This document shows, piece after piece, positions 39,504-44,712 of a stretch of DNA of 64,000 nucleotides. Both the position numbers and the translations under genes were made by a program. Origin of the DNA: Aureimonas frigidaquae (GTDB taxonomy: Bacteria; Pseudomonadota; Alphaproteobacteria; Rhizobiales; Rhizobiaceae); NCBI RefSeq assembly GCF_001463905.1, contig NZ_BBWR01000003.1, positions 186,001-250,000 of the forward strand, read 5' to 3'. The notes beneath the pieces were generated by a model. It did no database searches, was not told the DNA's origin, and was given only the letters and a program-made list of their open reading frames with translations. Position 1 is the stretch's first letter. Every line of letters starts with the position of its first letter.

Positions 39504-40238
39504 CTAGCGGGCGGGGATGCCGGACATTTCGGCCCGGATCAGATCGGCCGCCCGGCGCGGGTCCGGCGCATTCAGGATAGGGCGGGCCACCACCAGATGC
39601 GAGGCGCCGGCCGCCAGAGCATCGGCCGGCGTGACGATGCGCTTCTGATCGTCCGCGCTCGCAAAGCCCGGGCGGATGCCCGGTGTTACGATGGCCATGT
39701 CCGGCCCCACAGTGGCCCGGATTGCGCCGGCTTCGGCCGCCGAGGCGACGATACCGCCGACGCCGCAGGCCTTTGCCTGCGCGGCGCGCCGACGGACGAG
39801 CTCGGCCAAGGGCACGTCGTAGCCCGCTTCGTTCAGATCCGACTGGTTCATCGACGTCAGAACCGTCACCGCCAGGATGGTGACGCCGGAGCCCGCCGAT
39901 GCCTTGGCGGCGGCGCGCATCACCTGCGGATAGGCATGGACGGTCAGCATCGATGCGCCGAGGCCGATCGCGCTGTTGACGCCCTTCTCCACCGTATTGG
40001 CGATATCGAGGAGCTTCATGTCCAAAAAGACCTTCTTGCCCGCCCGCGACAGGTCCTGGACCAGCGGAAGGCCGCCGGCCAGAGCAAGCTGGAAGCCGAT
40101 CTTGTAGAAGCTCACGCTGTCGCCCAGAAGATCGATCATGCGCTCGGCGGCAGCCCGGTCCGGCACATCCAGGCCGACGATCAGGCGGTCGTCGGCCGCA
40201 AGCGCTTCGGCCTGTGCGGTGGCATTGTCCTGTGGCAT
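39504..40238 (-). CDS. pyrF: Orotidine 5'-phosphate decarboxylase
   Basis: 244 aa from ATG 40238, whose first base is the first base of the polA stop (TGATG). The catalytic Lys-Asp cluster lies in [13 protein letters not shown]; the phosphate site includes [17 protein letters not shown] and [11 protein letters not shown]. It makes UMP from OMP. A TTG one codon upstream is also in frame but less likely. It is tightly coupled to polA. Confidence 0.97.
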
Positions 40239-43162
40239 CAATGGGCCTCTTCCCAGTTCGCGGCGGCGCGCGCATCGACGACCAGCGGTACCGAAAGCTG
40301 GATGACCGGCTCGGCCGCGCGCTCCATCACCTCGCGCACCAGCGGGATGGTGCGCTCCACCTCGTCCTCCGGCACTTCGAAGACGAGTTCGTCATGGACC
40401 TGCAGCAGCATGCGTGCCGACAGGCCCGCTGCCGCCAGTTCCGGCTCCATGCGGATCATGGCGCGGCGGATGATGTCGGCCGCCGTGCCCTGGATGGGCG
40501 CGTTGATGGCGGCACGCTCGTTGAAGGCGCGCACCGACGGGTTGGCGTGGCGGATATCGGGGTAATGCGCGCGCCGGCCGAACAGCGTTTCCACATAGCC
40601 CTGCGCCTTGGCCTGGGCCTTCATGGCGTCCATGTAGTCGCGGATGCCGGGGAAGCGCTCGAAGTAGCGGCGGATATAGAGCGCGGCCTCCTCCCGCGGG
40701 ATGGAGAGCTGCGCCGCCAGGCCGAAGGCCGATATGCCGTAGATGATGCCGAAATTGATTGCCTTGGCCCGCCGGCGCACCGAAGGCTCCATGCCCTCGA
40801 CCGGCGTGTTGAACATTTCCGACGCGGTCATGGCGTGGATGTCGATCCCCTGCCTGAACGCCTCCGACAGCTGGGGAATCTCGGCCATATGCGCGAGAAT
40901 CCGCAGCTCGATCTGACTGTAGTCGGCCGAGACGAGCGTCATGCCCGGAGCGGCGATGAAGGCGGTGCGGATGGCGCGGCCTTCCTCGGTGCGCACGGGA
41001 ATGTTCTGCAGGTTCGGCTCGGACGAGGACAGGCGCCCCGTCGTGGTGGACGCCATGGAGTAGGAGGTATGGATGCGCCCCTGCGCATCCATATGGCCCG
41101 GAAGCGCATCCGTATAGGTGCCCTTCAGCTTGGTGAGCTGGCGCCATTCCACGATGCGGCGGGGCAGTTCGTGCCCCTCGGCGGCCAGATCCTCCAGCGT
41201 GCGGGCATCGGTCGACCATTGGCCGGTGCGCGTGCGCTTGCCGCCGGGCAGGCCGAGCTTGCCGAACAGGATTTCGCCGAGCTGCTTGGGCGATCCGGGA
41301 TTGAAGCTTTCGCCGGCAAAGCCGTGAATGTCGGCCTCGAGCGAGGCGGCCTTCTGCGCGAAGCGGCCGGACAGGCGTGACAGGATCTGCCGATCCACCC
41401 TGATGCCGCGCTCTTCCATGCGCGCCAGCACCGGTACGAGCGGCCGCTCCAGCCGCTCATAGACATGGGTCAGGCCATCGGCCACAAGGCGCGGCTTCAG
41501 AACCTCCCAGAGCCGCAGCGTGACATCGGCGTCCTCGGCGGCATATTCGGTCACCTTGTCGATCGGACAGGCGGCGATGGCGCGCGCCCCGCGCCCGCTG
41601 CCGCACAGCTCCTTGTAGCTGATCGGCTTATGGCCCAGGAACCGCTCCGACAGCTCGTCCATGCCATGCCCGTCCAGCGACGACGAGGCGTCCAGCGCAT
41701 AGGAGATGAGCATCGTATCGTCGAAGGGCGCAATGGCGATGCCCCGCCGCAGCATGACGAGATAGTCGTATTTGAAATTCTGCCCGATCTTCAGGACAGC
41801 GCCATCGGTCAGCACCGGGCGCAGCAGATCGAGCGCCAGCGCCTCGGAAAGTTGCGGCCCGACGCCCCCATCCGCGCCCTGGCCGCCACCGAGAAGATCG
41901 CCATCGCCCTCCGCCACATGGGCCAGGGGCACATAGGCAGCCTCGCCCGGGCTGACGGCCAGGGCCAGGCCGACAATTTCGGCATGCATGGCGTCGAGCG
42001 CGGTCGTCTCGACATCGAAGGACAGGATGCCCGTCTCATAGGCGCGGGCGATGAAGGCTTCGAGCCCCGCCTGGTCGCGGATGGTCGTGTAGGCGGTGCG
42101 GTCGACGGGGCGATCGGCCATTTGCGCCATGCGGCCTGCGGCAAAGGCCGCCGGCGTCAGGGGCAGGTCCGCATCGCTCTTGTCGCCGCCCGGGGTTCCC
42201 GTGGGGTCAAGGTCCGGGCCGCGGGCCGGCGCATCGACATCGATCTGCGCCGCTTCGATGCCCGCCACTTCCGTGCCGAGCTTGGCGGAAACGCGTCGCG
42301 TCAGCGTGGTGAACTCCATCGCCTTCAGATAGGCGATTAGCCGCTCCCCATCCGTGTGCTCTATGGCAAGCGCGTCGAGCGGCACGTCGAACGGCGTGTT
42401 CACATCCAGCGTGACGAGCGTGCGCGACAGGCGGGCCTGGTCCGCGAAGGCGATGATGTTTTCGCGCCGCTTGGCCTGCGGAATCTCGGCCGCGCGCGCC
42501 AGAAGCGTTTCCAGATCGCCGAACGTGTCGAGAAGCTGCGCGGCGGTCTTGGGCCCGATCCCGGGAATGCCGGGCACATTGTCCGACGTATCGCCGACCA
42601 GCGCCTGCAGGTCGATCATCTTCTCGGGGTAGACGCCGAACTTCTCGAAGACCTCGGCGGGCCCGAGCCGCTTGTCCTTCATCTGGTCATACAGGGTGAC
42701 GCAGGGCCCGACGAGCTGCATCAGGTCCTTGTCGGACGACACGATGGTCACGTCGCCGCCGGCTTCCAGCGCCAGGCGCGTATAGGTGGCGATCAGATCG
42801 TCCGCCTCGAAGCCCTGCTTCTCGATGCAGGGCAGGTCGAAAGCGCGGACGGCTTCGCGGATCAGAGCGAATTGCGGGACGAGATCTTCCGGCGGCGCGG
42901 TGCGATTGGCCTTGTAGCCTTCGAAGAGCGCGTTGCGGAACGTCGTCGAGGAATGATCGAAGATCACTGCGAAATGCGTCGGCGCCACGCCGACGGAGGT
43001 GTCCTTGCTCTCTTCCACGAGCTTCCACAGCATGTTGCAGAAGCCCGACACCGCCCCGACGGGCAAGCCGTCGGACTTGCGGGTGAGCGGCGGAAGTGCG
43101 TGATAGGCCCGGAAAATATAAGCCGAGCCGTCAACGAGAAAGAGGTGATCGCCCTTTTGCAT
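40238..43162 (-). CDS. polA: DNA polymerase I
   Basis: 974 aa from ATG 43162 ([20 protein letters not shown]); the frame is open to 43267 but without a reason to start there. All three domains are present: 5'-3' nuclease (residues 1-290, [24 protein letters not shown]), a proofreading domain with [10 protein letters not shown], so exonuclease residues appear intact, and the polymerase with motif [13 protein letters not shown], motif [17 protein letters not shown] and motif C VHDELVFE. It acts in repair and Okazaki fragment processing. Confidence 0.98.
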
Positions 43163-43493
43163 GACCGCTCGTACCGTGCCGGAAAACGCCTGTCCATGCC
43201 GCGCGAGCGACACGGCGGCAAGGCTTACCACGAGCTGCGCGGGGCCGACATGCCGCATTGCCAGCATGTCGCCGACAAAACAGAAAATTCCCCTGCGTCA
43301 GGCGGTCGCGGAAACGCTTCCGTAACCGTGTGAGCGAACAAGGACTTGACCGCGCGAAAACCGTTTAAATACAGTTACTTAACCGCACGTTACGCTGACA
43401 TGACGCCGAGATTACGAAAACTTAATCCGCATTATCACGCAAGCGTGAACGGCCGGTCTTGAACCAGCCGGGCAGAAGGCGCATTTTACGATC

Positions 43494-43651
43494 AACGACG
43501 CGACACTAAGGCGTCGTGGTTCGGCCCAAAGCTCGTCCCCCGCTTTCGGACCGGATTGAAGTGGATAATCCCTATCCCCCTCTCGGGATATCCGCTTACT
43601 CAGAGAGAGCCGTCGCGACAATCCCCCTCCAGTCCGCGACGGCTCTTTTTT
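43494..43651 (+). ncRNA. Probable small RNA with three C-rich loops, next to polA
   Basis: A promoter-like TTGAAC (43459-43464), 17 bases, then CATTTT (43482-43487) precede four consecutive hairpins. H1: 7-bp ACGACGC arms at 43495-43517. H2: 43522-43553, loop TCGTCCCCC. H3: 43559-43597, 13 bp with one bulge, loop TATCCCCCTCTC. H4: the terminator, a perfect 12-bp stem at 43606-43646 whose loop holds ATCCCCCTCC, ending in six T. No reading frame fits. The exposed C-runs could pair with ribosome sites (GGAGG), as in anti-Shine-Dalgarno small RNAs of alphaproteobacteria. The position beside polA recalls the rhizobial alpha-r7 (Smr7C) family; membership is unverified. Confidence 0.75.
43606..43651 (+). 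terminator. Terminator of the small RNA gene
   Basis: AGAGCCGTCGCG (43606-43617) pairs perfectly with 43635-43646, followed by TTTTTT. No protein gene lies upstream on this strand, so it implies a short untranslated transcript. Confidence 0.92.
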
Positions 43652-43835: not shown

Positions 43836-43912
43836 GCACCCGTAGCTCAGCTGGATAGAGTGCTGCCCTCCGAAGGCAGAGGTCACAGGTTCGAATCCTG
43901 TCGGGTGCGCCA
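43836..43912 (+). tRNA. tRNA-Arg (anticodon CCG)
   Basis: 77 nt with encoded CCA. The acceptor arm GCACCCG pairs with CGGGTGC, discriminator G. The D arm contains AGCTCAGCTGGATAGAG. The anticodon stem CTGCC/GGCAG encloses CTCCGAA, anticodon CCG reading CGG. The T arm is ACAGG-TTCGAAT-CCTGT. Accessory DNA begins directly after its 3' end, as often at tRNA insertion sites. Confidence 0.97.
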
Positions 43913-43937: not shown

Positions 43938-44712
43938 CTAGGTAACAGATCGTACCTGAGACATAGGTGACAACCTCATGCCGAACGGGTTGTCGATGGT
44001 TTGCTGTGTTCTCTGTTCCAAGTCGATATATCCCAGATCGTAGTGCATGAAGCTTAAGAGCCAGATGCCATCGTCAACCTCCTTCAAGCCGAGTCTCTGA
44101 CCGGCAAGGACGGTCTGATCGCTTGCGGCAATCACGTTGGCGGAACAGACGCAGGAAGGTTTCGATGACGGGCTGCTCCCTCGTCGATTGAAGGGCTTCG
44201 CAGGCCTGGATCATGCGCGAAGCCTGGTCGGTCACCGTCAGGGGGTAACAGTAACGTCCGTCACCGGTCTTGAATTCGCCTTTGAAGTCGGCGCACCACA
44301 GATCGTTGGGCGCGGTTGCGCACGACAAGGTCGTTCCCTCGGCCGTGAAGCGGCGCCGCTGCCGGGCCCGCTTCACAAGCCCATAGCGGTCGAGCACCGC
44401 ACGCACGGTTGATTGGGCTGGAATGCGAACGTCACCTGCCAGACGTCTGAGCAGAAGTTCGCGGATCTTCCTGGCACCCCAATGCGGCTTGTTCCGCTTG
44501 GTTTCGACGATCAGCCGCTCTGTCTGTTGCGGCAGCTGATTGGCGTAGCGCACAGGCCGCCGCGAGCGGTCCGTCAGTGCCTCCAGGCCTTCGTTCCAGT
44601 AGCGGTCCCAGATCTTGTAGCCTGTCTTGCGCAAGATGCCGAACTCTCGACAAACATCGCTCATGCTCTCACCGTCCAAAAGACGGCCGACAAAACGAAC
44701 CCGCTCGTCCAT
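43938..44712 (-). pseudogene. IS481-family transposase, internally deleted
   Basis: The N-terminal part (ATG at 44712) has the helix-turn-helix SDVCREFGILRKTGYKIWDR, RPHWGARKIR-like RNKPHWGARKIRELL and the first catalytic Asp in DLWCADFKGEF. After RLFRQRD near 44140 the frame runs into unrelated codons. In another frame (43938-44135) the family C-terminus resumes: VLAGQRLGLKEVDDGIWLLS. About 100 residues with the second Asp and the Glu of the DDE triad are missing, so it cannot transpose by itself. Confidence 0.88.

Follow-up and report, generated by a model that had tools for sequence, protein, structure and literature searches.

An Aureimonas orthologue of the polA-linked small RNA ar7, with conserved hairpin loops and phased operator-type sites upstream

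The window analyzed here, 64,000 nucleotides of Aureimonas frigidaquae DNA, carries at positions 43494 to 43651 a predicted small RNA that is the Aureimonas orthologue of the trans-encoded RNA ar7 (RF02342), an assignment made because the Rfam model matched over its full length and because the RNA lies beside polA, as published for the family. The structure, loops, promoter and operator of ar7 are held by selection. Our joint explanation, to which we give a probability of about 0.7, is that an ar7 orthologue is driven by an activator and silences mRNAs by pairing through its loops. The features of the region are listed below; the 5' end of the RNA was placed at 43494 from conservation and promoter spacing.

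40238-43162, minus strand: polA, divergent neighbor of ar7 (open reading frame open to 43267)
43412-43425, unstranded: second related site, TTAC-N6-TTAA, centered at -75
43435-43448, unstranded: putative operator TCACGC-AA-GCGTGA (TCAC-N6-GTGA), centered at -52
43459-43486, plus strand: putative promoter, TTGAAC (43459-43464) and GCGCATTT (43479-43486)
43494-43651, plus strand: ar7 (SmrC7/sra03/SmelC023) small RNA gene, four hairpins, about 158 nt
43495-43517, plus strand: hairpin 1, the 5' hairpin, no C-rich loop
43518-43557, plus strand: hairpin 2, loop 43533-43541 TCGTCCCCC, including GUCCCCCGC at 43535-43543
43559-43597, plus strand: hairpin 3, loop 43573-43584 TATCCCCCTCTC (as RNA UAUCCCCCUCUC), suited to Shine-Dalgarno pairing
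43602-43650, plus strand: hairpin 4, loop 43620-43631 AATCCCCCTCCA (as RNA AAUCCCCCUCCA)
43602-43651, plus strand: intrinsic terminator, the long stem of hairpin 4 followed by T6
43836-43912: tRNA-Arg(CCG), adjoining ar7 downstream
44074-44712, minus strand: transposase-like open reading frame (by eye), after tRNA-Arg(CCG)

A preliminary description of this DNA had proposed a small RNA belonging to the polA-linked alpha-r7/Smr7C family. Four hairpins, promoter, terminator and conservation pattern all agreed with a small RNA, and family membership was borne out by the adjoining polA and by the covariance-model search with the Rfam alpha-r families that the description had recommended: run with cmscan at a relaxed threshold on the gap, RF02342 matched over positions 1 to 145 of its 145 (58.9 bits, E = 8e-11). 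This score is 1.1 bits short of the curated gathering score of 60 bits, which is a cut-off for Rfam listing and no trait of ar7. At Rfam's own cut-offs, a tRNA was the sole match in the whole window and ar7 was not called. Matches to 6C, Ms_IGR-8 and snoU13 lay far below their respective cut-offs and were taken as chance. The A. frigidaquae genome contained one RF02342 match, and four further genomes of the same genus among the matches listed gave E values of 1.9e-12 to 4.0e-10. In sampled genomes of the GTDB family, 251 of 297 matched (208 above the cut-off); in sampled genomes of the order, the count was 9 of 249, all 9 from the own family, under strict filters by which weak matches are lost. 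BLASTN with the window sequence detected the RNA in 21 of 61 relatives, namely, all 21 of the genus (A. frigidaquae included) and none of the 40 others. The statement that the stretch contains no reading frame held in part: mechanical open reading frames cross it on both strands, while the conservation pattern fits an RNA.

Kinship with ar14/NfeR1 had been suggested as well, and this suggestion failed. That the RNA is of the ar14/NfeR1 type, with redundant anti-Shine-Dalgarno bait loops, is very improbable: RF02344 (ar14) did match the same stretch weakly (35.0 bits, E = 7e-5), and two of the loops read CCCCCUC(C), but this score compares with a cut-off of 58.8 and with 58.9 bits for ar7, a separate ar14 scored 91.2 bits, above the cut-off, on another contig of the same genome, and the position beside polA belongs to ar7. 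Both RNAs present hairpin loops complementary to Shine-Dalgarno sequences; ar14, however, is described as having three hairpins whose loops all carry one anti-Shine-Dalgarno motif (PMC7143759), whereas the ar7 loops here are UCGUCCCCC, UAUCCCCCUCUC and AAUCCCCCUCCA, and the best-conserved loop is GUCCCCCG. The ar14 matches elsewhere are found at L139, L140 and L141 (1501 onward in each), with two weaker ones at 41.5 and 38.8 bits. Another conserved Rhizobiales small RNA that pairs via a loop, EcpR1 (SmelC291), differs from ar7 in lying downstream of divK-pleD and in its loop, UCCGCCGCAUCU (PMC4414408); by this location, it was excluded as the polA-linked RNA.

The Sinorhizobium counterpart, S. 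meliloti SmrC7 (also sra03 and SmelC023), lies in the gap between polA and SMc02851. Northern blots and 5'-end mapping gave two close 5' ends, a length of 148 to 150 nt and a 106-nt processed form, and the RNA was about 13-fold more abundant in nodules (PMC2780559). Its orientation is reported as opposite to polA (order polA <, RNA >; PMC2573895) and as plus strand, 201679-201825 (PMC2873474); these are contradicted by a table in PMC2245857, where the order '< < >' puts sra03 on polA's strand. The published ar7 family comprises 29 relatives, from Rhizobiaceae, Brucellaceae and Phyllobacteriaceae, all but one of them located beside DNA polymerase I, and is described as having four hairpins, with a variable 5' domain, a terminator, and highly conserved loops and base-pair exchanges in the stems of the middle two hairpins (PMC3927594); the main text of that paper does not mention Aurantimonas or Aurantimonadaceae. 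Of this description, the four hairpins, conserved middle loops, exchanged stem pairs and Rho-independent terminator were found here. The S. meliloti and Aureimonas RNAs share the covariance match, a terminator, four hairpins with conserved loops and the place beside polA, and differ in that the Aureimonas copy has diverged to just under the Rfam cut-off. A literature search, with most subscription journals outside its reach, retrieved no published function of ar7.

The four back-to-back hairpins of the preliminary description were all reproduced by folding 43494-43651 (minimum free energy, -70.9 kcal/mol; mean of the shuffles, -46.8; z = -6.56), and none of 200 dinucleotide-preserving shuffles folded equally well. 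The strong terminator it had claimed was likewise present as the long hairpin 4 stem plus T6; a simple terminator scanner did not call it because the loop maximum of the scanner is 8 and the hairpin 4 loop is 12. All three C-rich loops were found, the third having been drawn slightly wide (43618-43634 instead of 43620-43631). Folded one by one, the 21 genus copies all formed four hairpins and placed the three C cores in hairpin loops. Within loop 2, GUCCCCCG is the best-conserved stretch of ar7 and is a motif of a different kind, not an anti-Shine-Dalgarno one; the string CCCCCUC(C), present in loops 3 and 4, is suited, as a candidate site, to Shine-Dalgarno pairing. The proposal of one anti-Shine-Dalgarno bait repeated in three loops therefore stands for loops 3 and 4 and not for loop 2, where GUCCCCCG differs.

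Conservation beyond the genus was assessed with a covariance model built from the 21 Aureimonas copies and run on 80 named polA loci, two of which (L059 and L062) belong to genomes already within this training set. The model matched on the minus strand at 71 of the 80 loci, in 67 of them no farther than 800 bp from the polA match, and gave no match at the other 9. One matched locus, L112, comes from a record titled Bacillus subtilis strain SK6B4, with a polA 66% identical to that of the window; the record is probably mislabelled or contaminated. A structure-fitted alignment of 74 rows, 72 of them distinct (A2), included the window and two off-locus rows; the latter (L133 and L081, plus strand) are not polA-linked ar7 and appear ar14-like by eye, and were kept in the covariation and folding tests and dropped from operator and position counts. 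In the A2 stems, 87.7% of cells were paired, two-sided change was seen in 49 of 51 pairs, none of 500 shuffles reached the observed value on any of five measures, and a shift of the partners by 1 to 3 columns left at most 49.5% paired, a result biased toward structure since the alignment was fitted to structure. Pair counts on a plain MAFFT alignment of the genus only (A1) showed no excess covariation over shuffles, probably because the stems are misaligned there.

Because A2 was structure-fitted and A1 gave no excess, an alignment-free folding test was added. Four hairpins formed in 72 of the 74 A2 rows folded singly. Among rows having the respective core, the loop 2 core lay in a hairpin loop in 71 of 72 (controls, 28 of 360), the loop 3 core in 70 of 70 (controls, 58 of 331) and the loop 4 core, sought as CCCCUCC and found in just 38 of the 74 rows, in 37 of 38 (controls, 12 of 108); in the controls, everything except the cores was shuffled, and 8 to 18% fell in loops. 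GUCCCCCG (as DNA, GTCCCCCG) was lacking solely from the two ar14-like rows, being present in 72 of 74, and the longer loop 2 string GUCCCCCGC occurred in 61 of 74. The comparison of relatives that had been put forward as a check hence revealed compensatory stem change, with stems kept and loops holding, instead of the unconserved stems and drifting loops that would have spoken against an RNA, and the retention of the cores in hairpin loops across A2 agrees with the view of the C-rich loops as likely pairing sites.

With respect to its neighborhood, ar7 adjoins polA on the opposite strand, as in the published family. In the best segment, the window's polA shares 88% identity with the Aureimonas altamirensis polA; of 80 homologues, 75 have a match that starts between residues 23 and 41, and an ATG is present at residue 36. 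A tRNA-Arg was present within the fetched 1.5 kb in just 4 of the 21 genus loci, the own included. polA is accordingly the constant neighbor of ar7, and tRNA-Arg is not; the region beyond tRNA-Arg(CCG) may be an inserted island. The place of the RNA between polA and tRNA-Arg in A. frigidaquae might invite its reading as a cis-acting leader of one or the other gene. Such a role is scarcely credible, as the RNA has its own promoter and terminator, lies on the strand opposite to polA, and is present at 21 of 21 genus loci against 4 of 21 for the tRNA.

The promoter-like element claimed upstream of the RNA was confirmed in that all 21 genus copies had both its strings, TTGAAC and GCGCATTT, unchanged, and 68 of the 71 named loci had TTGA[AT] at -37 to -32. 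A promoter scanner reported nothing at this position, its sole hit being at 43346-43375. TCACGC-AA-GCGTGA at 43435-43448, proposed as the operator, was exact, and TCAC-N6-GTGA was kept at -52 in all 21 genus copies (mononucleotide-shuffle mean, 0.01). A second site, TTAC-N6-TTAA or GTAA, occupied -74/-75 in 19 of 21 (the exceptions being L007 and L019). The related pattern T[TC]AC-N6-[GT]T[AGT]A was present upstream in 67 of the 71 named loci (shuffle mean, 1.62) and absent from 4, L065 (Aureimonas glaciei), L112, L113 and L124; at least two operator-type sites were seen in 42, and the 130 nt downstream of the RNA, used as a control, contained one in 1 of 71. All but one of 110 sites lay near -53, -64, -75 or -85, i.e., in about 11-bp steps, by position bins drawn after the positions had been seen. 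While the Aureimonas genus uses -52 and -74/-75, other ar7 loci mostly use -53/-54 and -64/-65. Since the sites keep fixed 11-bp steps across the family, they point to one regulator, and their arrangement looks like helically phased binding.

Exact TCACG-N4-CGTGA occurred at three sites in the 4.1-Mb genome (reversed control, 0). The other two (L195:1501-1514 and L196:1501-1514) are intergenic and closely precede a DUF1194 gene and a DoxX gene if ATG starts are assumed; the mechanical GTG start of the DoxX open reading frame would overlap its site. These two genes may share the regulator of ar7. Summed over the 21 genus genomes, 137 such sites were counted against 11 for the reversed control, context having been viewed for the three of A. 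frigidaquae. GTCAC-N6-GTGAC yielded one site in the own genome, 167 bp before an open reading frame, and its reversed control also one.

In the mechanism that we propose, an activator would bind the TCAC-N6-GTGA type sites and drive a transcript of about 158 nt, whose loops would pair with G-rich mRNA stretches. Shine-Dalgarno regions would be bound by loops 3 and 4, and a more specific sequence by loop 2. Such pairing would block translation, a proposal made by analogy with NfeR1 and AbcR RNAs, in which loop-exposed C/U-rich motifs act on mRNAs (PMC7143759). ar7 is, by this analogy, probably a silencer of messenger RNAs.

Searches with exact loop complements revealed no conserved ar7 target. 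Complements of the loop 2 core GCGGGGGACG numbered 23 in the own genome, one being ar7 itself, and 23 in the reversed control. For GAGGGGGAT (loops 3 and 4), 29 hits were obtained, 2 of them ar7 itself, against 7 for the reversed control, an excess of 27 hits outside ar7 over 7; the reversed GAGGGGGAT word contains a stop codon, by which its count in genes is lowered. A loose scan gave possible starts near several complements, and a stricter scan for starts near GAGGGGGAT complements gave none. Over the 21 genomes, 13-nt loop 2 complements outside ar7 numbered 11, against 10 for the reversed control. The one site of these 11 whose context was viewed, L143:1501 (reverse strand), is perfectly complementary over 13 nt and ends 4 nt upstream of an ATG; by eye, the gene encodes a GntR-type regulator, and in the other 20 genus genomes none of its best hits exceeded 42% identity.

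This lack of a conserved mRNA target among exact complements would also be expected if the C-rich loops mainly bound a protein or another RNA as a sponge, with three exposed C-rich loops as potential repeated binding sites; SmrC7, moreover, is reported as undetected in an Hfq pull-down (PMC2848018). We consider a sponge unlikely, as the comparable C/U-rich loop motifs of NfeR1 and AbcR act on mRNAs (PMC7143759) and a search for exact complements is blind to imperfect or short pairing. Still less probable is that ar7 resembles PmaR, a C-rich Agrobacterium RNA reported to pair mostly away from the ribosome binding site and mostly to activate (PMC6234868), so that the C-rich sequences of ar7 would largely raise expression: loop 2 is not an anti-Shine-Dalgarno motif, as this would predict, but loops 3 and 4 suit Shine-Dalgarno sequences. 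We therefore retain mRNA silencing as the preferred reading of the loops.

As for the activator, the repeat AGTCAC-N6-GTGACT, adjoining the -35 box, is required by the srlA promoter of S. meliloti, point mutations lower activity, and srlA is tied to CenK-CenR (PMC9561847), CenR being a regulator of envelope stress. The srlA repeat resembles the ar7 operator in having the core TCAC-N6-GTGA upstream of the -35 box, an arrangement taken as the mark of the CenR regulon and found in 21 of 21 genus copies; it differs in being centered at -42, adjoining -35, whereas the ar7 operator is centered at -52. CenR may be regarded as the leading candidate regulator of ar7 because of this shared core. A published one-mismatch search for the srlA repeat named three other promoters, with smrC7 not among them (PMC9561847). 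The repeat assigned to Rhodobacter CenR, TGA-N8-TGA (PMC9275681), has a similar step to the ar7 operator but is direct, not inverted. Previous predictions for smrC7 comprise a UlaR site (PMC2780559) and RpoD plus RpoH1/2 (table in PMC7143759). The CenR-like operator and the S. meliloti RpoH1/2 assignments lend some support to a possible stress regulation of ar7.

The copies of Aureimonas, Aurantimonas, Jiella and Antarcticirhabdus are now added to ar7, and the Aureimonas copy is a new member of an already known family; the phased operator with its CenR-like core is the part worth following, and this core is a further lead beside the UlaR and RpoH predictions. A bolder and rather doubtful extension is that ar7 forms the RNA arm of an envelope-stress circuit, in which CenK-CenR would activate from helically phased sites near -53, -64 and -75 and the loops would silence envelope or transport mRNAs. 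If true, a two-component activator would gain a repressive arm across Rhizobiaceae.
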